Shown here piece after piece: positions 19,008 to 39,694 of a DNA stretch of 40,111 nt. The translations under genes and the position numbers were made by a program. Origin of the DNA: a virus; IMG/VR virus record IMGVR_UViG_3300049479_000244, positions 1 to 40,111 of that record. The stretch is one strand, 5' to 3'. The notes beneath the pieces are model-generated. The model was not told where the DNA came from and did not search any database. It saw nothing but the letters and a program-made list of their open reading frames with translations. Position 1 is the first letter of the stretch, and each line of letters begins with the position of its first letter.

Positions 19008-21341
19008 ATGGAGAAAAAAATCAAGATTGCACTCTGTATGATTGTGAAGCCAACCGATCAGGAAGCGATGGTGCTTGAGCGATGCCTCCTCTCGGTCGCT
19101 GACCACGTTGATAACATCTTTATCACTCAGGCGGGAAAGAAAAAGAATAAAGAGGTGACACGGGTGGCGAAGTCGTTTGACTGTGTTGAATCTTTTTGGG
19201 AATGGAACAATTCGTTTGCCGATGCTCGGAACTATAATTTCTCACAAGTGCCGAAGGAGTATGATTACATCCTGTGGCTTGATGCGGATGATGTGGTTCA
19301 GGGAGCCGACAAGATACGCGCGACGGTACAGGCAAACCAGAATGTGGACGCCTTCTCTTTTTGGTATCTCTATGCGTTCGACGAGTGGGATAATCCGATT
19401 GTCGTGCACCACAAAACGCGCGTCATAAAAAATGATGGATGCGTGACGTGGGTTGGCAATCTCCATGAGGACTTCCACCCGAATCGACAGCTTGAGACAC
19501 GTCATATTGAGGGTATCGAGGTGTGCCACCTCACGAATGAAGATCGATTGGCGAGCGCCAAGATTCGTAATGAAGAGGTTGCCCAAAAGGACATTGATGA
19601 GAAACCAAATGACCCACGTTCATACTGGAATCTCGGGAACTCGCAAAAATCCGTAGGGAAGAACGAGGAAGCCCTTGTTTCACTTCGTAGATTCATTGAA
19701 CTCTCTCTTTCAAACGACGAGAAGTATATAGCGCACCTACGCATCGCAGAATCGCTCTGTTTTCTTGAAAGAAAAAACGAGGCGATTGATGAGTTGCGGT
19801 ATGCGATTGGACTTAAGCCCCTCTACCCCGATGCGTATATTCAGCTCGGGCGTCTGTACTACGACACAGAACAGTACGCGGACGCGATTGAACTCTTAAA
19901 ACAATCACTCAAACTCACTCCACCGTACTACACGATTGTGGTGTATAACCCACGCGACTACGACTTTACTCCGCTCAAGTGGCTGGGGTATGCGTACATG
20001 GCGATCAACCAACCGATGCTCGCGTATGATTGTTTTGCACAACTCCTTAAGATCACACCAAAGGACAAGAACCTGAAGCAGATTGTCGAGAATATGAAAA
20101 CCGTTTCGGAGAAGCATGAAAAGATGCTCACAAAGTATGCTCAAATCAAGAATCTGAAGGGTGATGAACTGAGGAAGGAGCTCGATGCGATACCTGCTGA
20201 GTGGAAATCAGCACCGGAGTTTACTAATCTGCGCAACCTAAACTTCATTAAGACCGAATCCTCAGGAAAAGACATCTCCATTTTGTGTGGGTATACCACC
20301 AGAACATGGAACCCTACCGCTCTCGCCGAGGGAATTGGTGGCTCGGAGGAGGCGGTGATTCACCTCGCGCGGAGGTACGCTGAAGCGGGGTGGAATGTGA
20401 CGGTGTATAATAATTGTGGACATGAGGCACAGATATTTGATGGTGTGACCTACGCACCATTCTGGACGTGGAACTACCGCGACAAGACCGATGTCACCGT
20501 CCTTTGGCGCCATCCAAAGATGCTCGACTATGAGATAAACAGTGGAAAGATCTTTGTTGACCTCCACGATGTCTTAAAAGCTGGTGAGTTTAATGAGAAG
20601 CGTCTTGCGAAAGTCGATAAGATATTCGTGAAGTCGCAATTCCACAGGTCGCTATTCCCCCAGGTACCCGACGATAAGTTTGTTGTTATCCCCAACGGGA
20701 TTGTCAGTGCTGACTTTGGTGGTTCTTTTGAGAAAGACCCGCACTTGCTAGTGAACACATCGTCTCCCGACAGGTCACTCTCTACTCTCGTGCGCTTATT
20801 TAAGCGTGTAAAAGAACAAGTGCCCGAGGCGAAGTGCGAGTGGGCGTATGGCTGGGGTGTTTTTGATGCGGTACACGGCACCAATCCCAAGGTTATGGAG
20901 TGGAAGAAGCACATCATTCAGGGGATGGAGGAGGTGGGGATAGTGAATCGTGGACTTGTCTCTCATGCTGACGTCGCGGACATGTATAAACGAGCACGAA
21001 TCTTTGCGTACCCCACTGAATTTGCGGAAATTGACTGCATCAGTGCGCGCAAAGCACAGGCGGCGGGAGCAATCCCCGTTACCACCGACTTCGCAGCGCT
21101 CAACGAAACGGTACAGTTTGGGTATAAGGTACACTCAAAGAAAACAAAAGATGACTGGAATGGACCATACCAAACAGATTTTGCACTTAATGATACTAAG
21201 GCTGAGGACGAATGGGTGGAGCGCTGTGTGAGTATCTTAAAATACCCTGGACAATGGAACACTGACGAGATGCAACATGAGATGAAGAAGTACGACTGGG
21301 ACTGGGTAGCTGAGACGTGGATTAAGGAATTTACTGCATGA
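19008..21341 (+). CDS. GT2 glycosyltransferase - TPR - GT4-like glycosyltransferase fusion
   Basis: A 777-residue multidomain protein. Residues 1-200 are a GT-A fold GT2 domain: IALCMIVKPTDQ, FADARNYNF and YILWLDADDVV with the DxD metal/sugar-nucleotide motif. Residues about 205-345 contain TPR repeats (DPRSYWNLGNSQKSVGKNEE, YPDAYIQLGRLYYDTEQYAD). Residues about 425-777 are GT-B-like: EGIGGSEEAVIHLARRYAEA, VVIPNGIVSADFG, LVNTSSPDRSLSTLVRLFK and the sugar-binding region FAYPTEFAEIDCISARKAQA with its E-x(7)-E-type motif altered. It probably adds two sugars in sequence to a virion component. It opens the first glycan cassette and overlaps the next gene by ATGA. Confidence 0.88.
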   Translation: MEKKIKIALCMIVKPTDQEAMVLERCLLSVADHVDNIFITQAGKKKNKEVTRVAKSFDCVESFWEWNNSFADARNYNFSQVPKEYDYILWLDADDVVQGADKIRATVQANQNVDAFSFWYLYAFDEWDNPIVVHHKTRVIKNDGCVTWVGNLHEDFHPNRQLETRHIEGIEVCHLTNEDRLASAKIRNEEVAQKDIDEKPNDPRSYWNLGNSQKSVGKNEEALVSLRRFIELSLSNDEKYIAHLRIAESLCFLERKNEAIDELRYAIGLKPLYPDAYIQLGRLYYDTEQYADAIELLKQSLKLTPPYYTIVVYNPRDYDFTPLKWLGYAYMAINQPMLAYDCFAQLLKITPKDKNLKQIVENMKTVSEKHEKMLTKYAQIKNLKGDELRKELDAIPAEWKSAPEFTNLRNLNFIKTESSGKDISILCGYTTRTWNPTALAEGIGGSEEAVIHLARRYAEAGWNVTVYNNCGHEAQIFDGVTYAPFWTWNYRDKTDVTVLWRHPKMLDYEINSGKIFVDLHDVLKAGEFNEKRLAKVDKIFVKSQFHRSLFPQVPDDKFVVIPNGIVSADFGGSFEKDPHLLVNTSSPDRSLSTLVRLFKRVKEQVPEAKCEWAYGWGVFDAVHGTNPKVMEWKKHIIQGMEEVGIVNRGLVSHADVADMYKRARIFAYPTEFAEIDCISARKAQAAGAIPVTTDFAALNETVQFGYKVHSKKTKDDWNGPYQTDFALNDTKAEDEWVERCVSILKYPGQWNTDEMQHEMKKYDWDWVAETWIKEFTA

Positions 21342-22231
21342 GAATCGCCTTTTGCTGGACGAATGGGGTGAGGAATAAAGACCGATTTTTTAGATGGAAC
21401 GACGGATTAAGGAGAGCCATCACACTAATGGAAGCTGAAGGTCATGAGTTGAGTTTCCACGAGCCAGATGAAGACTTACCCACTGTTGATTGGATTTTAT
21501 TCTGGGAGGCGCCGTGTACCCACTCATCTGAGTTGTGGGGAGATGCGTACAAGAAAGTGCAGTATTCCCCACAGAAAAAGGCGCTCCTCTTTGCGGGTGG
21601 TCCGATACAAAAGAATTGGGTGGAAGGATTTGACCACATCTTTGTTGAGTCGCTTATAAATCGTGATGATTTTGACCGGATCGGAGTTAAAAATTCAGTG
21701 GCGTTTGGGGTAAACACTGACATTTTTAGGCCACTTGATACCCCGAAGATATATACCACAGTTACTCATGGAACATGTGCCAGCTGGAAACGTCAGAACC
21801 TTGTTGGTGAGGCTTTTAAAGAACGGGCACTCGTGTTTGGCCAACCGCAGGACACCGATCCAAAGATGTTTGATGACTGTCGGAACTTTGGATGTACTGT
21901 CTTACTTGAGCAGACATACGAGGAAACAAATAGACTACTCAATACCGCTCATGTTGCGGTGAATTGCGCTGATTTCTGGGGCGGTGGGCAGAGGTCGACA
22001 CTTGAGGCGATGGCGTGTAATCTCCCCGTTGTGGTGATGGAAGATTCTCCTAAAAATCGCGAGTATGTGGAGGCGAGCGGTTGTGGGTATGTGTGCAAAC
22101 CAGAGGTAGAAGCAATACGAGAGGCAGTCAACACCGCTGTTGTGGAAAAAAAGTCTGGTGGAAGGGAGTATGTTATGAGAAACTGGACACCAGAACATTA
22201 TAAAAATGCACTATTAAATGTAATTGGATAA
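21338..22231 (+). CDS. GT4-like glycosyltransferase
   Basis: A 297-residue, GT-B-like protein. The N-terminal half begins MRIAFCWTNGVRNKDRFFRW and is divergent. The C-terminal half contains VAFGVNTDIFRPLD, the loop typical of retaining GT4 enzymes (N/G-V-D-x-x-x-F-x-P), and WGGGQRSTLEAMACNLPVVV followed by NREYVEASGCGYV. The conserved Glu of E-A-M-A-C is the nucleotide-sugar binding residue of the family. It overlaps the preceding fusion by four bases and is followed after one base by the FkbM gene, so all act in one pathway, probably decorating a capsid or tail protein. Confidence 0.85.
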   Translation: MRIAFCWTNGVRNKDRFFRWNDGLRRAITLMEAEGHELSFHEPDEDLPTVDWILFWEAPCTHSSELWGDAYKKVQYSPQKKALLFAGGPIQKNWVEGFDHIFVESLINRDDFDRIGVKNSVAFGVNTDIFRPLDTPKIYTTVTHGTCASWKRQNLVGEAFKERALVFGQPQDTDPKMFDDCRNFGCTVLLEQTYEETNRLLNTAHVAVNCADFWGGGQRSTLEAMACNLPVVVMEDSPKNREYVEASGCGYVCKPEVEAIREAVNTAVVEKKSGGREYVMRNWTPEHYKNALLNVIG

Positions 22232-22232
22232 T

Positions 22233-22838
22233 ATGCCAAGCGTAAATGACCATTTTAAGTACACTGTCGAGGAGTGGCAGAGTGATCTATTTAAGAAAAT
22301 TACTGACCCACTCCCCGAAGATATACGGGTGGTGTTTGACGTTGGTGCGAACGTGGGTGGTTGGGCACATGTGATGCAGGGGAAATATGGTAACAATCTT
22401 TCCATCACTTGCTTTGAGCCCGTCAAGGAAAATTTGGAGATGCTTAAATCAAAAGATCTGAATATCACCATTTGTCCATTTGGCATATTCTACGGTGCGC
22501 GCGAGTCACACGTTTGTTCGCGCGGGGATGGTAACTGCGGTGGTGTTTTTGTGGAACAAATAGAGGCTGGTGACCCAATTATCAAATCGGATGAGATTAT
22601 CCAGCTCCGCACATTCGAGGAACTTGAGTTACCCATGCCGAACCTAATAAAGTTTGACGTAGAGGGGGCAGAGGAAAACATACTTGAACACTCGACTCTC
22701 GTAAAAGAAACTCCATGGCTCATCGTAGAGTGGCACCCAGAACATGTGGACTGTTACGAGTTTTTTAAAAAACACCTCCCACAGCATGAGATTGTGGTTG
22801 ACTTGGAGAGTAAGCAGTTTCTTCTTCATAAACAATGA
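22233..22838 (+). CDS. FkbM-family SAM-dependent methyltransferase
   Basis: A 201-residue class I methyltransferase. Motif I is VVFDVGANVGGWAHVM. ITCFEPVKENLEML gives the acidic ribose-binding residue (E). The FkbM signature is LIKFDVEGAEENILEHS followed by WLIVEWHPEH. Such enzymes O-methylate sugars, so it probably caps or modifies the glycan made by the neighbours. I prefer ATG 22233 to the in-frame TTG at 22224, which would lie in the previous stop region. It overlaps the next glycosyltransferase by ATGA. Confidence 0.9.
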   Translation: MPSVNDHFKYTVEEWQSDLFKKITDPLPEDIRVVFDVGANVGGWAHVMQGKYGNNLSITCFEPVKENLEMLKSKDLNITICPFGIFYGARESHVCSRGDGNCGGVFVEQIEAGDPIIKSDEIIQLRTFEELELPMPNLIKFDVEGAEENILEHSTLVKETPWLIVEWHPEHVDCYEFFKKHLPQHEIVVDLESKQFLLHKQ

Positions 22839-23473
22839 TCAGTGTCCTCACCCCCTCAATTCGACCAGAGCACCTCAACATTACCCAAGGGTGCCTTGAA
22901 TCTCAGGCCTTCCAAGATTTTGAGTGGTTGGTGGAAATTGGTAGGCGGAATCAGGGTTTTACACTACCCTCAGACTTGAACAAGATGCTCCGACGCGCGA
23001 AGGGCGATCGTATCGTAATGCTTCAGGATTGTATACACATACTCCCCAACGCACTTGAGAAGATACACGCGCTCCCCAATGAGATGTACACCTTCCCCGT
23101 CGGACAGGTGAGGGCGATAGGAGACACACCCGAGTGGGACTGGCGAGATACATTTACTGGTGAACTCCTCGGTGCGCACTACTGGGAGTCTGACTTCGCG
23201 TGCGCACCAACACAGGCGTTTTTTGACGTCGGTGGGTACGACGAGGACTTTAATAATGGATGGAGTTGGGATAATGTTGAGGTGGCGCGCCGTATTTACA
23301 GGACTGGGCGCAAGGCATACTGTGAGCCAAGTATTCGTGGTATCGCCATTAAACACGACTCGATTAAACCACACCCCTTTCGGAACACCCTCGTAAGCAA
23401 CGCAGATCGCGCAGAAGCGTCTAAATATCGGTGCGAAAGAGGAGAGTACAAGCTCAATTACTTGACTCGGTGA
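22835..23473 (+). CDS. GT2-family glycosyltransferase
   Basis: A 212-residue GT-A fold protein. It starts MISVLTPSIRPEHLNITQGC, the usual beta-strand of GT2, and includes LNKMLRRAKGDRIVMLQDCI, where a Q-D-C replaces the classical D-x-D, and FFDVGGYDEDFNNGWSWDNV with the acceptor-side G-G-x-D-E and W-x-x-x-x D/E motif of galactosyltransferase-like GT2 members. The weak DxD suggests an altered metal site or relaxed activity. It closes the first glycan cassette; its TGA is followed after three bases by the TGGTATAAT promoter of the tail module. Confidence 0.82.
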   Translation: MISVLTPSIRPEHLNITQGCLESQAFQDFEWLVEIGRRNQGFTLPSDLNKMLRRAKGDRIVMLQDCIHILPNALEKIHALPNEMYTFPVGQVRAIGDTPEWDWRDTFTGELLGAHYWESDFACAPTQAFFDVGGYDEDFNNGWSWDNVEVARRIYRTGRKAYCEPSIRGIAIKHDSIKPHPFRNTLVSNADRAEASKYRCERGEYKLNYLTR

Positions 23474-24234: not shown

Positions 24235-24444
24235 ATGCCAATCACCCTCACCCCAATCAGTAAATCGTCGTCAGTGTCGCTTACTCCAATAAGTAAGTCG
24301 TCCGCAGTTTCTTTTACTGCGTTAAGTAAGAGTGGTAGCACATCAATCAGTGTGGGGGAATCAATTGGGCTACTTCTTGCGCTCACCCATGCATCACCGA
24401 TTAGTTCGGGGTCATTAACCGTAACCTTAATATCAAAATCTTAG
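24235..24444 (+). CDS. small Ser-rich protein with tandem 11-residue repeats
   Basis: A 69-residue protein, two bases after the adaptor stop. The first half is three imperfect tandem repeats, LTPISKSSSVS, LTPISKSSAVS and FTALSKSGSTS; the DNA repeats too (AAGTAAGTCGTC-like units). The second half is hydrophobic to polar (SIGLLLALTHASPISSG) and ends LTVTLISKS. It resembles the repeating beta strands of phage surface or fibre proteins and might be a short decoration or linker protein. With so many Ser/Thr it is another possible glycan acceptor. No family recognised. Confidence 0.6.
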   Translation: MPITLTPISKSSSVSLTPISKSSAVSFTALSKSGSTSISVGESIGLLLALTHASPISSGSLTVTLISKS

Positions 24445-32315: not shown

Positions 32316-33752
32316 ATGCTCACGAGCGTCCTCATCCCCGCACGAAATGAAATATACCTAGAGCAGACTATTCGGAATGTCCTTGCAAACATTCGTGGGG
32401 ACTCGGAAATCCTTATTATGCTTGACGGGTACATACCGGAAACACAAATTGTGACTGGTGATGACAGGGTTCGCTTTTTCCATAACCGTGAAGCTAAAGG
32501 ACAACGTGCGTCTATAAACGAACTCGCGCGACAGGCAAAAGGGAAATTCATTATGAAACTCGACGCGCACTGTGCCGTAGACGAGGGTTTTGATGTGAAA
32601 CTCGCAGAGGACTGTGAGTATGACTGGACGGTGATTCCTCGGATGTACAACCTTGATGTCAAAACCTTCACACCGAAACTCCGCAAACGTACCGACTACA
32701 TGTACATTGGTATGAACGAAAGGGGAGAATTGCGCTCACTCTACTACGGGGGAGAACAGTGGAAGGAAATGCACCGCAGGACGGAACTCATCGACGACAC
32801 GATGGGGTGTATGGGGCCAGGGTGGTTTATGCACAAGGAACGTTTTTGGGAACTCGGGGGCTGTGATGAAACACAAGGAGGTCCCGCAGGGTGGGGACAG
32901 CAGGGCATCGAGGTTGCGTGTAAGGCGTGGCTCTCTGGTGGTAGGCTGGTGGTGAACAAAAAGACATGGTTCGCACACTGGTTCCGCGCAAGTGACGGAG
33001 GGTTCCCGTACCCCATAAAAGAGAGTGACATACAGAAGACACGGGAGTATTCAAAAGACCTGTGGCTCAATAACAAATGGGAGGGACAGAAGCGCAATTT
33101 TCAATGGTTAATAGATAAATTTAATCCCCCTGGCTGGGACACCTATATGAAATATCCAGAGTACGATGAGACATTTGAGCGAATGTATAAACACATTCAC
33201 CGTCAGATGCACTACCCGAAGTATAAGGGACTCCTCATGCAGAAGTTCCCGAACGACATGCAACTATACCACCAAGTCATCTGGGAAAAGAAACCAGACG
33301 TTGTGGTTGAAATTGGGACACGATTCGGCGCGTCAGCACTATTCTTCCAAGACCAGCTCGACTATGTAGGAAACGGCGGGAAGGTTATCACTATCGACAT
33401 CAATCCACAGGTGGTAGAACACGACCCGCGCATCACCTACCTTATTGGGAACTCGAATGATGATGATATTGTTCGTAAAATCCAAGAACTTACAGCAGGT
33501 AAAAGTGTCATGGTTGTTATTGATGGGAACCACTCACGTACCCATGTGAAATGGGAACTCACGAAGTACAAGAACATTGTAACAAGTGGACAGTACATGG
33601 TGGTGGAGGACTGCTACGTTGACCGTGGACTTTACGGACCAGGGGAAGCCCGAGACTGGTTCCTCGCGCACACACGCTCATTTAAGAAAGTTGACCTACA
33701 CAACAACTTCCTCTACGGCATAACAAACGGTGCATGGCTACTAAAGACCTGA
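32316..33752 (+). CDS. GT2/GT27-like glycosyltransferase fused to CmcI-like methyltransferase
   Basis: A 478-residue fusion. Residues 1-245 are a GT-A domain: LTSVLIPARNEIYLEQTIRN, MLDGYI, then KLDAHCAVDEGF with a D-x-H motif (Asp83, His85) instead of DxD, and MGPGWFMHKERFWELGGCDE with G-W-G-Q-Q-G-I-E-V; these features recall polypeptide GalNAc-transferases (GT27). Residues about 293-478 match the cephalosporin-hydroxylase/CmcI methyltransferase family: KYKGLLMQKFPNDMQLYHQV, VVVEIGTRFGAS (SAM motif), VIDGNHSRTHVKWEL. The pair should add a sugar and methylate it. It opens glycan cassette 2 and overlaps the next gene by 19 bases. Confidence 0.85.
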   Translation: MLTSVLIPARNEIYLEQTIRNVLANIRGDSEILIMLDGYIPETQIVTGDDRVRFFHNREAKGQRASINELARQAKGKFIMKLDAHCAVDEGFDVKLAEDCEYDWTVIPRMYNLDVKTFTPKLRKRTDYMYIGMNERGELRSLYYGGEQWKEMHRRTELIDDTMGCMGPGWFMHKERFWELGGCDETQGGPAGWGQQGIEVACKAWLSGGRLVVNKKTWFAHWFRASDGGFPYPIKESDIQKTREYSKDLWLNNKWEGQKRNFQWLIDKFNPPGWDTYMKYPEYDETFERMYKHIHRQMHYPKYKGLLMQKFPNDMQLYHQVIWEKKPDVVVEIGTRFGASALFFQDQLDYVGNGGKVITIDINPQVVEHDPRITYLIGNSNDDDIVRKIQELTAGKSVMVVIDGNHSRTHVKWELTKYKNIVTSGQYMVVEDCYVDRGLYGPGEARDWFLAHTRSFKKVDLHNNFLYGITNGAWLLKT

Positions 33753-34516
33753 GCATTATTATTCCCTCGTGGAAAGACCCGTACCTGAACAACACCATTC
33801 AGTCCATCCTTGATAATTTTGAAACAGACTTTGAAATCATACCCGTTCTTGACGGTTACAGACAGGACGTTATCGACCATTCCCGTGTAAAACCACTGTA
33901 CCTAGAGAAGAACGGTGGTATGCGGAACGCCATCAATCAGGGCGTGAAGCGAGCTGAGGGTACATACCTTATGCGTACAGATGAGCACTGTATGTTTGCT
34001 AAGGGGTTTGACAAAACGATACTCCGAACCATACAACCGAACTGGATAGTTGACGCGAAACGATACTTCCTCGACCCCGTGAAGTGGGAGGTGATGGACG
34101 TGCCCCCCGTGATTATGGAACGGCTCGTTATCTCCAAAAACCACAACAAGTTCTCTGCCTTAGTGTGGCGAGAGGCAGACAACAACATCCCCATTAAACC
34201 CAAACAGGCGATGCAGGGTTCGTGCTGGGTGATGCCCCACGCATGGTGGGACAGTGTGATAGGTGAACTCCAAGAAGATGGGTACGGAAAACTGTACCAA
34301 GACTCTACCGAGATGACTATGAAGACATGGAGAGCGGGAGGGGAACTGATGAGCAACCAAGAGACATGGTACGCGCACAAACATCGCTCATTTTCTCGTA
34401 CACACAATCACTCAAACAAAGAGGCGCGGAAGTCATGGGATTATGCACTCGCACAGTGGGGTGACTATTACAAGTACGAACTGTTACCGAGATGGCAAAT
34501 ACGATACTCTACCTAG
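33734..34516 (+). CDS. GT2/GT27-like glycosyltransferase
   Basis: A 260-residue GT-A enzyme paralogous to the first domain of its neighbour: LSIIIPSWKDPYLNNTIQS, IIPVLDGY, NGGMRNAINQGVKRAEGTYL and then MRTDEHCMF, with Asp83 and His85 at the same residue numbers as in the fusion protein. The C-terminal half has QGSCWVMPHAWWDSVIGELQ and TEMTMKTWRAGGELMSNQE, the acceptor-side pattern (G-x-x-x-x-M-x-x-x-x-W, E-x-x-x-K-x-W-x-x-G-G). It probably transfers a second sugar or acts on another site. It overlaps genes on both sides (19 and 25 bases), suggesting coupled translation. Confidence 0.82.
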   Translation: MATKDLSIIIPSWKDPYLNNTIQSILDNFETDFEIIPVLDGYRQDVIDHSRVKPLYLEKNGGMRNAINQGVKRAEGTYLMRTDEHCMFAKGFDKTILRTIQPNWIVDAKRYFLDPVKWEVMDVPPVIMERLVISKNHNKFSALVWREADNNIPIKPKQAMQGSCWVMPHAWWDSVIGELQEDGYGKLYQDSTEMTMKTWRAGGELMSNQETWYAHKHRSFSRTHNHSNKEARKSWDYALAQWGDYYKYELLPRWQIRYST

Positions 34517-35172
34517 GAACACCGAACCTTGACCCACTCATAAAACAGGTGTGCTTTTCTCTGTTGGAGAAGATGGACAAGCCCATTGTGCGTATGGAAC
34601 AGCCCCCTGAGTGGGAACTGTCGGGACTCTCGATGTATAAACAGATTAAAAAGGGGCTGGAACAGGTACACACTAAATGGGTAGCGATTGCGGAACATGA
34701 CTGCCTTTACACCGGGGAACACTTCGACTTTACTCCCCCTGATGACCGCTACTTTTGGTATAACCTGAATAATTGGTTGGTACAGTACAAGAACCCAAAA
34801 CACCCAGAATATGATGGTATGTACTCGTATGTTCCGAATCGGCGTGTGCAGTCACAACTTATCTGTCGTGCTGACATGCTCCGTGAAGTAACGGAAGCGC
34901 AGATACGCGTGGTCGAGCGTCCAGACTGGTTCCGTGATAATAAACTCATTGGGGAACCCGGAACCATTGGTATAAAAGCCCTCAGAATGACTACAGGCGA
35001 CACCCACCAGTGGATTAAAGACTACTTGATAGGGTATCAGGCACGAGACTTCCGCACTGAAATACCGAACGTGGACATCCGTCACGACACGAACCTAACG
35101 GGGCCAAGGAGGGGAACAAACAGGACATTTGAATTATCCACATGGGGTAGGTTCGACCTAAAAATGGTATAA
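34492..35172 (+). CDS. putative glycosyltransferase-like protein
   Basis: A 226-residue protein. TILYLGTPNLDPLIKQVCF resembles a GT-A opening strand and loop, and KGLEQVHTKWVAIAEHDCLY places an E-H-D-C motif where a GT2 enzyme has its D-x-D. The middle is Trp/Tyr/Phe-rich (FDFTPPDDRYFWYNLNNWLV), and the C-terminus has VERPDWFRDNKLIGEPGTIG. I cannot match a family with certainty, but the location at the end of a glycosyltransferase run and the motif support a third enzyme of the pathway. Its stop TAA lies inside the TATAAT of the next promoter. Confidence 0.6.
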   Translation: MANTILYLGTPNLDPLIKQVCFSLLEKMDKPIVRMEQPPEWELSGLSMYKQIKKGLEQVHTKWVAIAEHDCLYTGEHFDFTPPDDRYFWYNLNNWLVQYKNPKHPEYDGMYSYVPNRRVQSQLICRADMLREVTEAQIRVVERPDWFRDNKLIGEPGTIGIKALRMTTGDTHQWIKDYLIGYQARDFRTEIPNVDIRHDTNLTGPRRGTNRTFELSTWGRFDLKMV

Positions 35173-35174
35173 TT
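35166..35174 (+). promoter_or_regulatory. extended -10 promoter overlapping a stop codon
   Basis: TGGTATAAT; the TAA stop of the previous gene (35170-35172) lies within the TATAAT box. ATG 35203 is 28 bases downstream, preceded by an A-rich leader, so this one is leadered. It restarts transcription of virion genes after the second glycan cassette. Confidence 0.6.
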
Positions 35175-35202
35175 ACAAAAACTTATTTATAAAAAATCAA
35201 GT

Positions 35203-35688
35203 ATGACACCAGCACAACTCACAACACTCAAAAACTTTATCAACGCAGACCCAACGCTTTCTGCCGTTCCAGCAGGAAGCGACGGGGACTACTTCATCGC
35301 CGAACAGCTCAATAAAGAGGTCGCTCCCGCTTTCATCGTATGGAGGACTGACGTTCGGGCAGAGGAAATAGGGAACGCATGGATAGGGACTGACATCGAC
35401 GGGATGTCCGCCCTCAACATGCAACGCCTCCAGCTCCTTCTCGACTCCGCACCAACGGGAGTCTTCAATATGTCCCGCGCCGACAGACGAGCAGGGTTTG
35501 AAAATCCCTTCGGAACGAACCAGAACAACGCCTCACGGGTTGCCATGCGAGAGGCATGGAAGCGTCCCGCAACTGTGTTTGAAAAACTCTTTGCGACGGG
35601 AACGGGAAGCTCGGCCAGCCCAGCGACGATGGTACTCGAAAGCCCAGTCTCGTGGCCTGACGTTGGTGAAGCTCGAAGATTAGCATAA
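35203..35688 (+). CDS. conserved phage protein of unknown function
   Basis: A 161-residue protein: MTPAQLTTLKNFINADPTLS, AGSDGDYFIAEQLNKEVAPA, FIVWRTDVRAEEIGNAWIGT, SADRRAGFENPFGTNQNNAS. This build (an opening helix L-x-x-x-I-x-A-D-P-x-L, followed by an N-x-x-A-x-P-x-F-x-V-W-R/K-T segment) is one I associate with a widespread small protein in tailed phages, usually near lysis or tail genes. The family's function is unknown. The C-terminal part is Ala/Thr/Pro-rich. It is the first gene after the promoter at 35166. Confidence 0.7.
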   Translation: MTPAQLTTLKNFINADPTLSAVPAGSDGDYFIAEQLNKEVAPAFIVWRTDVRAEEIGNAWIGTDIDGMSALNMQRLQLLLDSAPTGVFNMSRADRRAGFENPFGTNQNNASRVAMREAWKRPATVFEKLFATGTGSSASPATMVLESPVSWPDVGEARRLA

Positions 35689-35700
35689 TAAACAACATCT

Positions 35701-36207
35701 ATGGCAACACTTAACATTGCATATCGAGCGTCCTCGACAATCACCATATCCCCAGAAAACGTCGCGTCGTCATCGACCTTTGTGGCTGGCGTGGAATCAA
35801 ACGTCTACGACAACACGTCTAACAAAGATGTTGATGTACTCATCAGTGGACTCTGGACTTCAGGGACGACTCCGACAGCGAACACCCTCGTACAAATCTG
35901 GGTCGTTCCTGTCATTGACGACACGCCGACGTATCCTGACGTATTCGATGGAACTGCCAGTGCGGAAACCGTGACAAGTGCTGGTGTTCATTCTGGACTT
36001 GGACGACTCGGTGCAACACTGTATGTCGATACCAACACAACTGCCCGCTCCTATCACTGTGCTCCGTTCTCGGTAGCCAATCTCTTTGGCGGGATTCTCC
36101 CTTCAAAGTTTGTGCTGTTCATCGCCCACAACACAGGGGTAAATAGTAACACCACCGCAGGGAACCACTACTGGAAGGCACAAGGAATCAACTACACCAT
36201 AGCGTAA
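35701..36207 (+). CDS. beta-rich virion protein, 168 aa
   Basis: A Thr/Ser/Val-rich, beta-strand protein (MATLNIAYRASSTITISPEN, VASSSTFVAGVESNVYDNTS, DVDVLISGLWTSGTTPTANT). It resembles small proteins that co-occur with LamG-type fibres in environmental phages, probably part of the tail fibre or a host-contact structure. No catalytic motif. It is separated by one base from the following LamG/Ser-Pro protein, so it probably acts with it. Confidence 0.65.
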   Translation: MATLNIAYRASSTITISPENVASSSTFVAGVESNVYDNTSNKDVDVLISGLWTSGTTPTANTLVQIWVVPVIDDTPTYPDVFDGTASAETVTSAGVHSGLGRLGATLYVDTNTTARSYHCAPFSVANLFGGILPSKFVLFIAHNTGVNSNTTAGNHYWKAQGINYTIA

Positions 36208-36208
36208 T

Positions 36209-37750
36209 ATGACGAGAGAGGTTACCAGAGGACTCACTGGTTGGATAAAGTTCCTTGAGGGGACGGGGACTAGTCTTATTGATGTCAAACAGGGATTAAT
36301 CTCAACCGCCACAGGTGGGCCGACATGGAGACAGGGGCATATAAACACCTACTCCATGAACTTTGACGGAGTCGATGATTACGTCACCCTTAACGCATCC
36401 CTAAAAGTAGGGCAGATTTTTGCCTACTCTTTCTGGTTCAAAAGAGATGCAGAGAACGCCGCATACCCGCTATTCATGGGTTCTGACCTGTTTGCAGGAG
36501 TGACGGGAAGTGGCGGTGCGAGTGTTTACCAGACTGGTACTGGAAACACACTACGTTTTGAAATCTTAAACAGCAACACGACTCGTCAATCAATCACGGC
36601 CTCGGCTGGCGCATGGGGCGACCTCTCAGGCAACAAGCAGTGGAATCATTGTGTCGCTCAGTCAGATGGACGCTACATTTCACTCTTTCTCAACGGACGG
36701 CTCGTCGGACGAGCACTCAAAACCGTCACAATTGCCTGGAATAGTGCGGGTATGTATCTCGCCAAACAGAATCCGTCGACTCCAGGAGGAAGTGCTGGCG
36801 CATGGTATGACGGTCTAATCGACGATGTTCGTGTTTACAACCGAGCCCTTGATGAATCGGAGATACGCGCTCTGGCGTTGATGATGCCGTATCGGGTACC
36901 ACGATGGATGGATGTGGCGGGTGCGGGTGGTTCACCGTCGTCTTCTCCAAGCACATCCCCCTCAACGTCCCCCTCTGCAAGTCCTTCAACTTCACCGTCC
37001 TCTAGCCCTTCTGCCACACCAAGTGCATCCCCAAGCACTTCCCCCTCTACTTCACCCAGTGCGAGTCCGTCAGCTACTCCTTCCCCATCGGCTTCCCCCT
37101 CAACCTCACCCTCAACCAGTCCGTCCTCCTCACCATCAGCCACACCGAGTCCTTCAGCGTCGCCATCCACTTCGCCTTCAACAAGCCCCTCCGCGTCACC
37201 ATCTGCAACCCCTAGCCCATCTGCTAGCCCCTCTACGTCACCAAGTTCAAGCCCCTCTGCGACACCATCAGGCGGTGGTTCTTCCCCGTCGTCCTCACCG
37301 TCAGCAACACCTTCTCCGAGTGCTAGCCCCTCTACAAGTCCTTCAACCTCTCCTTCAGCGAGTCCCAGTGCAACACCATCGCCCTCAGCAAGTCCATCCA
37401 CCTCACCGTCAACGAGTCCAAGTTCGAGTCCGAGTGCTACACCGTCACCTTCCGCAAGTCCAAGCTCATCCCCAAGCACTTCACCATCAACGAGTCCATC
37501 ATCTAGCCCCTCAAGTAGTCCAAGCCCCTCACCATCCCCCTCACCATCGGGCGCACCCGACTACTCACTCAACCCCAATATCTTTCTTCAGATGGGGCAA
37601 CTCTCGTACCAGACGACAGGACTCACCATGCCCGCATGGAATACGGCAAGCCGTCCCGTAGGTCGACTCGGGGAGTGTGGTTTGAACACCGATACAAGTA
37701 AATTAGAAGTGTATAACGGCTCCTCGTGGGTCAGCGTATTATTAACATGA
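36209..37750 (+). CDS. LamG-domain adhesin with long Ser/Pro/Thr repeat
   Basis: A 513-residue protein. Residues about 1-225 form a LamG/concanavalin jelly roll: INTYSMNFDGVDDYVTLNAS, FAYSFWFKRDAENAAYPLFM, WNHCVAQSDGRYISLFLNGR and GLIDDVRVYNRALDESEIRA, the classical family end. Residues about 242-447 are S-P-x-(S/T) repeats of Ser, Pro, Thr and Ala with one GGGSS break, like a mucin or cell-wall stalk. The last 65 residues (DYSLNPNIFLQMGQLSYQTT, LEVYNGSSWVSVLLT) form a small beta domain seen at fibre tips. Probably the receptor-binding tail protein, the stalk being a good O-glycosylation target. It overlaps the next gene by ATGA. Confidence 0.85.
   Translation: MTREVTRGLTGWIKFLEGTGTSLIDVKQGLISTATGGPTWRQGHINTYSMNFDGVDDYVTLNASLKVGQIFAYSFWFKRDAENAAYPLFMGSDLFAGVTGSGGASVYQTGTGNTLRFEILNSNTTRQSITASAGAWGDLSGNKQWNHCVAQSDGRYISLFLNGRLVGRALKTVTIAWNSAGMYLAKQNPSTPGGSAGAWYDGLIDDVRVYNRALDESEIRALALMMPYRVPRWMDVAGAGGSPSSSPSTSPSTSPSASPSTSPSSSPSATPSASPSTSPSTSPSASPSATPSPSASPSTSPSTSPSSSPSATPSPSASPSTSPSTSPSASPSATPSPSASPSTSPSSSPSATPSGGGSSPSSSPSATPSPSASPSTSPSTSPSASPSATPSPSASPSTSPSTSPSSSPSATPSPSASPSSSPSTSPSTSPSSSPSSSPSPSPSPSPSGAPDYSLNPNIFLQMGQLSYQTTGLTMPAWNTASRPVGRLGECGLNTDTSKLEVYNGSSWVSVLLT
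36932..37549 (+). repeat. Ser-Pro-x repeat region encoded by scrambled codons
   Basis: About 206 codons of S-P-(S/T/A)-S type repeats. Ser is written with TCA, TCC, TCT, TCG, AGT and AGC in changing order; Pro with CCA, CCC, CCG and CCT. So the protein repeats exactly while the DNA does not. One GGGSS interruption lies near 37270-37285. The shadow frames are open along the full length but are artefacts of this composition. Confidence 0.9.
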
Positions 37751-37987: not shown

Positions 37988-38818
37988 ATGAAACAGTACG
38001 GAACAGGCGCAGAAGAATCTCCATACGACATTAGGACGTTTACCTATGTCCCCTCCCCACAACCGAAGCTGGGGGGTAAACGGTACTCTAAAAAGGACAT
38101 AGAGGATCAACATAAGGTTGGTATCTGCACCGCAATAGCAACAACACAAAACGCCCGCAAGGCGCTCGGCATTAAGTTCAGCGCTGATTTTCAATACCTG
38201 CTACAAAAGAAACTCCAGGGGAATTGGGACGAAGGATCTTCCCTTTCATGGGCGCTCAAGATAGCTAAAAACGTTGGGTTTCTTCCTGAAAAAGAATGGA
38301 CATTTACCACCGAGCAAGACCGGAAACTTCCGTATATAAAATACATTAAGAAGCTACAAGCCGTCTCTGACGCTGACATTGAGAAGCTAAAAAAGAGGGC
38401 GGAGAAGTACAAGATACTTGCCTACGCAAAAGTGCCAGTAGACCGTGACCTTATGGCGCAGGCAATCAACGAAAGTGACGCGGGGATTCTCACTCGGTAC
38501 GCTATTGGACGCGAGTGGTGGACAAAGCCGATAGAGCCACTTCGTCCTCCAAAGGAGGTTATAAGTGGTCACGCGGTAACCGACAGCAACTACGACGGCG
38601 ACTCGTTCCGCATCGCAAACACATGGGGGACAGACTGGGCTGACTGGGGTACGGCGCACAGGTTACATGACACCTACAAGCCCACGGAGGCGTGGATTGT
38701 TCACTACAACAAGGTTCCTGAAACAATCCAGAGACAAATTGACTCACGCGAAGCTGTCTTGGGTAAAATCCTCGATGGTTTGCAGGAGATTATTAAATTG
38801 TATCAAAAACTAAAATGA
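37988..38818 (+). CDS. papain-like (C1 family) cysteine peptidase
   Basis: A 276-residue protease. The catalytic set is visible: Gln41 and Cys47 (DQHKVGICTAIA, six residues apart as in papain), His195 (VISGHAVTDSNYDGDS) and Asn211 (FRIANTWGTDWADWG, with the N-x-W pair of the family). No signal peptide is seen. Placed between two small membrane proteins in what looks like the lysis cassette, it may be an unusual lysin cutting a peptide or protein in the envelope, or act in virion maturation or penetration. The C-terminal helix (ILDGLQEIIKLYQKLK) could bind a partner. It overlaps the holin-like gene by ATGA. Confidence 0.85.
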   Translation: MKQYGTGAEESPYDIRTFTYVPSPQPKLGGKRYSKKDIEDQHKVGICTAIATTQNARKALGIKFSADFQYLLQKKLQGNWDEGSSLSWALKIAKNVGFLPEKEWTFTTEQDRKLPYIKYIKKLQAVSDADIEKLKKRAEKYKILAYAKVPVDRDLMAQAINESDAGILTRYAIGREWWTKPIEPLRPPKEVISGHAVTDSNYDGDSFRIANTWGTDWADWGTAHRLHDTYKPTEAWIVHYNKVPETIQRQIDSREAVLGKILDGLQEIIKLYQKLK

Positions 38819-39027: not shown

Positions 39028-39148
39028 CCCACTTGTTGTGTACTGCGCTGAATGTGGCGAAGACATAACCCTACGAGAACAAGAGATTGTGGAGTCACGA
39101 GTGTTGTGTGAGGACTGCTTTGAAGGCGAAGAAACCCCCGACGATTAG
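39005..39148 (+). CDS. 47-residue zinc-ribbon-like protein
   Basis: Starts at ATG 39005 inside the end of the holin-like gene (23-base overlap) and ends at TAG 39146-39148. The pattern VVYCAECGEDITLREQEI followed by VLCEDCFEGEE gives two C-x-x-C knuckles, 23 residues apart from first to third Cys, as in small treble-clef or zinc-ribbon proteins. The last gene of the late operon; its stop shares bases with the converging muramidase gene. Function unknown, perhaps a small regulator. Confidence 0.6.
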   Translation: MKYPSHNNPLVVYCAECGEDITLREQEIVESRVLCEDCFEGEETPDD

Positions 39149-39163
39149 TCGAGGGCTTCTTTG
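39129..39163. terminator. bidirectional terminator spanning two converging stop codons
   Basis: AAGAA-CCC-CGAC (39129-39142) pairs with GTCG-GGG-TTCTT (39148-39161) with two mismatches. The GATTA loop plus the next base hold the TAG stop of the plus gene (39146-39148) and the TAA stop of the minus gene (39145-39147). A T-run is present on both strands (TTCTTT, and TTCTTC on the other side). Confidence 0.75.
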
Positions 39164-39600
39164 TAACAACTCCACATCCTCGGGTTTTTGACGATATTCT
39201 TTGCCATGAACTCTATCGCAAACTGTGGATCAATCGCCTGTTCGTAGGTTACGTTCGGATGAGCCGGTAAGTATATCTGCACCAGCCCATAGCTCTGTTC
39301 CCTGCTTCCGTCTGGTCGTTTGTGGTAGCTTTGAATCGTCGTACTCCCGTTACTTTCACAGGCGATGATCCGCTTCATCAAGCCCGCGTCGGCCCCATAC
39401 TTCTCTGCCTGTTCTTCGATCTCCTGTTCTATCCTCTCGGGCGTCCACTCAATGATCGGCTCAATCAACACCACTTCCGGTTCGACAATTTCCTCTGCTC
39501 GGGCGTACTCAATCGGATTCAGTTCGTTGTACGTCCATGAGTTATTTAGTATATTCCCTCCAATCACTAGGCACATCACCACTAAAGTGATGTTCTTCAT
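39145..39600 (-). CDS. secreted SLT-type muramidase / lytic transglycosylase
   Basis: A 151-residue protein from ATG 39600. The N-terminus MKNITLVVMCLVIGGNIL is a signal peptide or anchor, with a possible cleavage at EYARA/EE. A charged linker follows (IIEWTPERIEQEIEEQAEKY). The catalytic domain has MKRIIACESNG with the catalytic Glu, then REQSYGLVQIYLPAHPNVTY and FAIEFMAKNIVKNPRMW, the S-Y-G-L-x-Q-I and A-x-x-F-x-A-x-x-I features of SLT-type enzymes. It cleaves peptidoglycan glycan strands. Being on the opposite strand to the late operon, it may act early (DNA entry, wall remodelling) or in lysis. Confidence 0.82.
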   Translation of the reverse strand: MKNITLVVMCLVIGGNILNNSWTYNELNPIEYARAEEIVEPEVVLIEPIIEWTPERIEQEIEEQAEKYGADAGLMKRIIACESNGSTTIQSYHKRPDGSREQSYGLVQIYLPAHPNVTYEQAIDPQFAIEFMAKNIVKNPRMWSCYKEALD

Positions 39601-39638
39601 AATTATGCGTTCAATACGCGTGGGTCTTAACTTGTAAG

Positions 39639-39694
39639 ACGAGAGGGGTTGGGTCACGGGGGTAACCAAACACCCACGACCCCATGCCTCTCGT
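39639..39694. repeat. long imperfect hairpin upstream of the muramidase
   Basis: ACGAGAGG (39639-39646) pairs with CCTCTCGT (39687-39694). Inside, GGGTC (39651-39655) pairs with GACCC (39678-39682), and GGGGGT/ACACCC can extend the stem. A second small hairpin CCACG/CGTGG follows (39702-39718). No T-run follows, so it is not a terminator. In the minus-strand mRNA it would lie 39 bases before the muramidase ATG, where it could control translation, or it could be a DNA-level site. Confidence 0.55.

Follow-up and report, generated by a model that had tools for sequence, protein, structure and literature searches.

The viral record IMGVR_UViG_3300049479_000244 is a linear sequence of 40,111 bases, analysed here at its full length (the window), and this study concerns a candidate protein O-glycosylation system within it: a run of three overlapping genes, cassette 2, and the LamG-domain gene that lies downstream (Table 1). 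The original prediction, made from the letters of the sequence, had described two cassettes of glycosyltransferase and methyltransferase genes, whose products would glycosylate a mucin-like LamG protein. The reading frames it relied on are all present as open frames, family matches place the glycosyltransferase genes between virion genes as it had said, and its inventory of enzymes in both cassettes, with the FkbM and CmcI-like methyltransferases, was recovered in Pfam, NCBIfam and PHROG, some glycosyltransferase matches lying below cut-off. The terminase and major head protein of the window were matched, the portal and adaptor weakly. Since the major head protein shares about 26-27% identity with its counterparts in Pseudomonas phage Bjorn, Sulfitobacter phages and EBPR podovirus 2, the window most likely comes from an uncultured podovirus-like phage.

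Table 1. Features of the window bearing on the proposed system (GT, glycosyltransferase; SAM, S-adenosylmethionine; aa, amino acids).
Feature	Position	Strand	Description	Matches or basis
Cassette 2	32316-35172	+	three genes with overlapping ends, then two small frames, then the LamG gene	
Fusion enzyme	32316..33752	+	D-x-H GT (residues 1 to ~285) fused to CmcI-like SAM methyltransferase (~295-478)	PF00535 2.3e-14; PF04989 RMNT_CmcI 4e-31
Second D-x-H enzyme	33734..34516	+	D-x-H (DEH) GT, 260 aa, overlaps preceding gene	PF00535 2.8e-12
Third enzyme	34492..35172	+	GT-A-like (E-H-D), 226 aa, overlaps preceding gene; proposed elongating GT	alignment A5, model
Two small frames	35203-35688 and 35701-36207	+	between cassette 2 and the LamG gene	
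LamG protein	36209..37750	+	proposed acceptor; LamG (residues 53-219), mucin-like stalk, C-terminal phage-type domain	PF13385 3.6e-21
Ser/Pro/Thr/Ala tract	36926..37552	+	residues 240-448 of the LamG protein; proposed O-glycosylation sites	
Cassette 1	19008..23473	+	GT2-TPR-GT fusion, GT1, FkbM methyltransferase, GT2-like; directly downstream of the major capsid gene	

Enzymes of cassette 2 and their candidate acceptor

The D-x-H motif had been placed at residues 83 and 85 of both the fusion enzyme and the second enzyme of cassette 2, correctly so. The metal site expected in the fusion consists of D83, H85 and H221; in the second D-x-H enzyme the same residues are common to 15/15 rows of alignment A3, and they are invariant in all 33 rows of alignment A4. 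As a single query the second enzyme gave a weak PDB match (6p61 at 0.0056). With the alignment of phage relatives as profile, polypeptide N-acetylgalactosamine (GalNAc) transferases ranked first, GALNT1 reaching 8.9e-15 over profile positions 3-246, and with a second, glycosyltransferase-only alignment the GALNT1 match was split in two pieces (3.4e-13). In the alignment with GALNT1, D83 and H85 stand opposite its DAHC, and H221 opposite the His of its GHVFR. The metal ligands of mouse GALNT1 are Asp209, His211 and His344, and all GALNTs belong to family GT27, according to PMC4202792. The spacing matches the interval from Asp209 to His344 (135 = 344-209). The arrangement typical of GT27, a D-x-H motif and a third His as predicted Mn2+ ligands, is found in the phage enzymes.

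The AlphaFold2 model of the fusion has a mean predicted local distance difference test score (pLDDT) of 91.3 and a predicted template modelling score (pTM) of 0.64, so that the relative placing of its two domains is uncertain. In a VIA-align comparison of this model, the top 29 entries were all polypeptide GalNAc-transferases (Z 27.5-23.9, 254-271 residues, 2.4-3.2 A), led by GalNAc-T2 with Z 27.5 over 267 residues, and the next non-GALNT entry was 6p61 with Z 19.4 over 180 residues; among the 50 matches listed by Foldseek, all were polypeptide GalNAc-transferases. A comparison of the modelled D-x-H domains with GT27 structures had been suggested from the outset, and GT27 came out best both by profile and by modelled fold, with the three metal ligands aligned. 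We suggest that the D-x-H domain works like GT27 and probably descends with it. The three enzymes of cassette 2 have no hydrophobic segment, their highest 19-residue mean being 0.84, which fits a cytoplasmic reaction.

The CmcI-like domain of the fusion model superposes on CmcI with Z 19.2 over 169 residues (VIA-align), and its VIDGNH and VVEDC align to FID.AH and IIED of CmcI, as expected for a CmcI fold; the acidic residues of these CmcI motifs we take to be its metal site. The domain does not reach the NCBIfam equivalog cut-off for rhamnosyl methyltransferase. The third enzyme has no Pfam or NCBIfam family. Its E68 and D70 are invariant in 22/22 rows of alignment A5, and its AlphaFold2 model (pLDDT 91.6) has a confident GT-A-like fold, for which GT-A enzymes score Z 10.3-11.6 among the 50 matches listed, tied with nucleotidyltransferases (IspD); the Foldseek matches also include the PBCV-1 capsid glycosyltransferase 2p73 (9.7e-5). 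A profile search of PDB gave no match and the resemblances in fold are middling and tied, so that any activity assigned to this enzyme is a guess. As a single query against viral contigs it found no relative; its alignment as query found 30 loci.

The candidate acceptor follows cassette 2 after two small frames, for which a Pfam search gave no match. A Ser/Pro/Thr/Ala region of about 206 residues had been predicted here; its presence and composition hold, and its length was counted as 209, with 104 Ser, 56 Pro, 24 Thr and 19 Ala (Ser plus Thr, 128). The Ser codons of the tract are mixed (72 TCN, 32 AGY) and Tandem Repeats Finder reported no DNA repeat in the tract region; it is the amino-acid pattern that is kept and not the DNA, which argues for selection on the protein. 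In PHROG, the LamG protein matches 8510 virion structural protein at 1.8e-8 over the LamG part and 1325 at 1.2e-7 at residues 468-510; a match to PF18454 Mtd_N at 481-506 (0.012) is below the cut-off of that family. The LamG gene is adjoined by a papain-like cysteine peptidase gene at 37988-38818 (3ois 4.3e-11; Pfam Peptidase_C1 below cut-off), whose product could mature or cut a fibre.

Association of D-x-H enzymes with serine tracts

Searching IMG/VR with profile A1 gave 373 relatives; the best 80 of these, together with five loci of an earlier search, four of them recurring, make up a forward set of 81 loci. Tracts were called by a strict rule (40 residues, Ser/Thr at at least 80% of alternate positions, at least 5 Pro), and 120 random comparison loci were drawn by an arbitrary 14-mer. 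The D-x-H match is present in 81/81 forward loci. A Ser-alternating tract is found in 58/81 of these, as compared to 0/120 random loci (Fisher 5e-32, the loci being not fully independent) and 0/7 capsid relatives. When enzymes were clustered at 90% identity, 53 of 69 clusters, including that of the window, carry the tract. Most tracts (54/58) are Ser-rich with varied partner residues, and the nearest tract and enzyme share a strand in all 59 tract loci, window included, with a median distance of 1375 bases. The E-H-D profile was matched in 70/81 loci, often in the same open frame as D-x-H, and the CmcI profile in 21/81, each with 0/120 among random loci. The scan with the third enzyme yielded 28 new loci (D-x-H in 25, tract in 25, both in 24); since several of them lie on contigs already represented in the forward set, they were not added to its count.

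The search was also run from the tract to the enzyme. A first, loose Ser/Pro pattern retrieved 93/120 loci with a tract, 78 of them of Thr or mixed type, and the enzyme in 3/120. A Ser-only DNA pattern retrieved at least 120 loci; of the 120 taken, 78 hold an in-frame Ser tract, 2 an SPSP tract and 40 none. The resulting reverse set comprises 57 loci with a Ser tract of at least 60 residues, in 54 whole records. Chosen by the Ser tract alone, 32/54 records encode the D-x-H enzyme (26/48 and 6/6 new ones), a fraction that is 25/32 for those of at least 30 kilobases (kb), as compared to 0/93 random records (0/43 and 0/50). Some records are near copies or also belong to the forward set (e.g. L082; G007/G026), so that Fisher values overstate independence. 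For Thr or mixed tracts the D-x-H enzyme was found in 0/78 loci and in 0/16 whole records tried, the latter with L001 as positive control; this contrast between Ser and Thr is exploratory because the split was made after seeing the loose-pattern results. Co-occurrence in related phages, which the original prediction had proposed to search for, is thus seen in both directions, and its counter-case, cassette relatives that never carry a Ser/Thr-rich protein, does not describe a set with a tract in 58/81 loci. Thr-Pro tracts (PTPTPT) are easily found in viral contigs (L118-L237) and did not accompany D-x-H enzymes in these 78 loci; perhaps they are paired with something else.

The tract is carried by dissimilar proteins. 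Tract-protein flanks from 51 loci fall into 24 groups (single linkage, E 1e-4, with a few out-of-phase frames included). LamG plus tract recurs in L004, L027, L030 and L039, and at cut-off in L016; other tract proteins have a beta-helix (L048) or a GDSL-like match below cut-off (L052). Likewise, the virion genes beside the cassette differ, with a tape measure in L005, a Baseplate_J-like protein with a short tract in L022 and the major head protein in L002. In a count of shared families over 82 loci, which omits frames matching the three cassette profiles or holding tracts, a SAM methyltransferase is present in 28 loci and no other non-cassette family in more than 8. Judged by eye, this methyltransferase is similar to L368:6075-6611, a Methyltransf_24, and it looks like a further part of the cassette. 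Just upstream of the D-x-H gene of L030 (1943-2737) lies, by eye, a UDP-sugar dehydrogenase-like protein gene, perhaps for donor supply, whose family occurs in 6/82 loci.

The enzymes also occur in cells. Scanning of genomes yielded 49 loci, most of them in assemblies titled as Patescibacteria lineages, with D-x-H in 48 and the tract in 23; L388, on a 744-kb contig, and L368, on one of 240 kb, have the enzymes and a giant tract protein close to tatC. Giant Ser-tract proteins of 1262-2323 aa were seen with the same enzymes in Patescibacteria (L368 12084-19055, L388 13093-17733, L382 11703-15491). When the phylum was sampled around a Patescibacteria genome, 3/192 genomes matched with the centre itself included and 2/191 without it, so that occurrence there is sporadic; a sample around a Bacteroidetes-titled genome gave 0/198, with no positive control. 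A quick tree of 134 enzyme rows, short matches and identical rows left out, mixes viral and genome sequences, and its starred branches force at least 12 label changes. Among 50,697 GenBank phage records searched by tblastn, the fusion and one other relative had no match and the second D-x-H enzyme one 79-residue piece, with no full-length match. Among the titles listed by our literature search, with subscription papers and preprints mostly outside its coverage, none concerned a phage system with GT27-like enzymes or Ser tracts.

A candidate O-glycosylation system and its alternatives

The gene order, the domain identities, the fold similarity of the models, the metal-ligand alignment and the two-way co-occurrence with Ser tracts were computed directly. 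We consider it likely, judging from sequence comparison and modelled folds, that cassette 2 is a phage-encoded cytoplasmic mucin-type O-glycosylation system acting on the Ser-rich stalk of the LamG protein. The reaction, the donor sugar, the order of steps, the location in the virion and the benefit we infer as follows. A GT27-like D-x-H enzyme would move a sugar from a host nucleotide-sugar onto Ser/Thr of the stalk. The fusion would be the initiating enzyme with an O-methyl cap, its CmcI-like domain O-methylating the glycan, while the other two enzymes, the second D-x-H one and the E-H-D one, would begin further sites or lengthen the chain. These reactions would take place in the cytoplasm, ahead of virion assembly; the decorated LamG protein would then enter the virion as a fibre or appendage, and its glycans would stiffen, hydrate and shield the stalk. 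Of the glycosylation originally predicted, the likeness of the D-x-H enzymes to GT27 and the pairing with Ser tracts stand by comparison and the membership of cassette 1 in the same system does not; the core interpretation, begun as a guess from a motif, is strengthened by a genomic association running both ways and by the predicted fold match.

Several observations weigh against this interpretation or limit it. The GALNT motif WGGENLE reads WGQQGIE in the alignment: WG and the following Glu are kept and GGEN has become GQQG. This WGGEN-type motif lies near the donor sugar, and with GGEN replaced the donor may not be UDP-GalNAc. No ricin-type lectin family was found in the two D-x-H genes (Pfam, E up to 1); because the lectin domain is missing and the GGEN motif is changed, we do not file the D-x-H enzyme as a GT27 member. 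The family matches that would place the LamG protein in the virion are weak. In addition, 22/54 Ser-tract records have no D-x-H enzyme, 7 of these being at least 30 kb, and 23/81 D-x-H loci have no strict tract, 9 of which end within 600 bases past the last enzyme gene. A DNA pattern search of these 23 whole records, two of them longer than 40 kb, found none, with no positive control in the search. A looser tract rule flags 4/23 of them and 4/120 random loci; by eye only L063, one of the two records above 40 kb, has a real Ser tract, and it is poor in Pro. Single linkage by any shared protein chains 70/82 loci, the window standing alone, and 55/82 are still chained after dropping 7 families found in at least 6 loci, so that the phages are not all independent. 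Finally, some "viral" contigs may be bacterial fragments, and some genome contigs may be phage.

How else might enzymes and tract be explained? Slippage can produce low-complexity tracts, and the tract might be such a product, or one of assembly, adjoining the enzymes by chance; we give this hardly any credence, since it is already contradicted by the mixed synonymous Ser codons (32 AGY of 104), by the lack of a tandem DNA repeat and by the occurrence of such tracts in 0/120 random loci (4/120 under a much looser rule). The enzymes could also act on host surface glycan or lipid or on phage DNA, with the tract serving as a flexible spacer in fibre proteins encoded nearby by chance. Phage glycosyltransferases are indeed reported to alter host serotype or phage DNA (PMC12619734), and the D-x-H enzyme is absent from 7/32 large Ser-tract records. 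This explanation nevertheless appears unlikely: the enzyme is associated with Ser-alternating tracts and not with Thr or mixed ones, the association spans the 24 groups of dissimilar acceptor proteins, different virion genes and long Patescibacteria contigs, the nearest fold is that of a peptide-glycosylating enzyme family, and capsid relatives with cassette 1 have neither the D-x-H enzyme nor the tract.

The cassette might instead glycosylate another virion protein, capsid or tail tube, the LamG domain and stalk merely co-travelling or binding that glycan. Such modification of mycobacteriophage capsid and tail tube is reported (Freeman 2023, as cited in PMC11256854 and PMC12619734) and cassette 1 adjoins the major capsid gene, but the idea fits cassette 1 better than cassette 2; moreover, no non-cassette family apart from the SAM methyltransferase exceeds 8/82 loci, whereas the tract is in 59/82, window included. 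We regard it as quite improbable, even more so than a host or DNA target. Glycosylation of the stalk itself is the reading that we retain. Since the pairing of enzyme and Ser stalk recurs in this way, viruses of microbes may well make a mucin-like surface for themselves. More broadly, and tentatively, there may be a prokaryotic branch of mucin-type O-glycosylation: a mobile GT27-like module with extending and methylating partners, common to uncultured phages and Patescibacteria, for which Ser-alternating tracts grafted on unrelated surface proteins are portable acceptors, giving a mucin-like coat on virions and ultrasmall cells. We hold this wider view to be plausible, short of probable.

The proposed system resembles eukaryotic mucin-type O-glycosylation (CAZy GT27) in its GT-A domain with D-x-H and a third His, its best fold match and its Ser/Thr/Pro-rich acceptor. 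It differs in that the phage enzyme has no ricin-type lectin domain and is fused to a CmcI-like methyltransferase instead, in the replaced GGEN, in the lack of a hydrophobic anchor and in its occurrence in phages and Patescibacteria; to our knowledge, the GT27 family is known from eukaryotes only. With the serine-rich repeat glycoproteins (GspB, Fap1, PsrP) it shares a long Ser-rich stalk and co-encoded dedicated glycosyltransferases in variable number; in those systems a priming transferase is followed by a variable set of extending enzymes on the Ser-rich stalk (PMC6973325). They use a GtfA/GtfB initiating pair and accessory Sec export, whereas the carrier here is a virus with other enzymes, and Pfam and NCBIfam found no GtfA/GtfB families among the cassette proteins. 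Mycobacteriophages also encode enzymes thought to decorate their own virion proteins, and here too the glycosyltransferases lie among virion genes. We know of no mucin-like stalk, GT27-like enzyme or methyltransferase fusion in the mycobacteriophage system. Its glycosylation is reported to be on the C-termini of capsid and tail tube subunits (cited in PMC12619734). Chlorovirus PBCV-1, to whose enzyme 2p73 the model of the third enzyme is matched, encodes glycosyltransferases as well; this algal virus has N-linked glycans on its major capsid protein (PMC7826918).

If this reading of cassette 2 is true, phages make their own mucin-like stalks with a GT27-like enzyme, a compact cytoplasmic O-glycosylation system becomes available for engineering, and there is an explanation for one class of repetitive proteins of Patescibacteria and uncultured phages. 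A phage or bacterial link would then have to be considered in the history of GT27, and virion glycosylation could be tested beyond mycobacteriophages.

Cassette 1 and other genes of the window

In cassette 1, the Pfam matches to the glycosyltransferase parts of the GT2-TPR-GT4-like fusion are below curated cut-offs (PHROG 13126 at 2e-30); the GT1 enzyme is matched at 3.5e-9 and the FkbM methyltransferase at 5.1e-14 (TIGR01444), and the GT2-like protein weakly, at 0.02, below cut-off. By eye, most cassette-1 enzymes recur, after the capsid gene, in the four capsid relatives whose translations were inspected (L007 6418-11344; L009 11281-13599; L012 7439-11308; L013 11317-17645), the FkbM gene being noted in L007 and the window only. 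None of the seven capsid-relative records, five of them under 14 kb and the others of 37 and 40 kb, has a D-x-H match or the tract pattern. The idea that both cassettes form one system, as the original prediction had pooled them, was set aside because the capsid relatives with cassette-1-like enzymes show neither D-x-H enzyme nor tract. Cassette 1 looks like a separate module by these comparisons, and its enzymes may decorate the capsid rather than the fibre. The capsid gene of one relative (L012 4886-6432) appears, by eye, to be split by an HNH-like open frame in the manner of a homing element.

Elsewhere in the window, a C-5 cytosine DNA methylase is encoded on the minus strand at 384-1454 (PF00145 1.3e-78) and a possible lytic transglycosylase at 39145-39669, also on the minus strand and opposite to the virion genes, its SLT match being below cut-off. 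A tandem repeat with a 33-base unit in 2.4 copies lies at 24253-24330, between virion genes.

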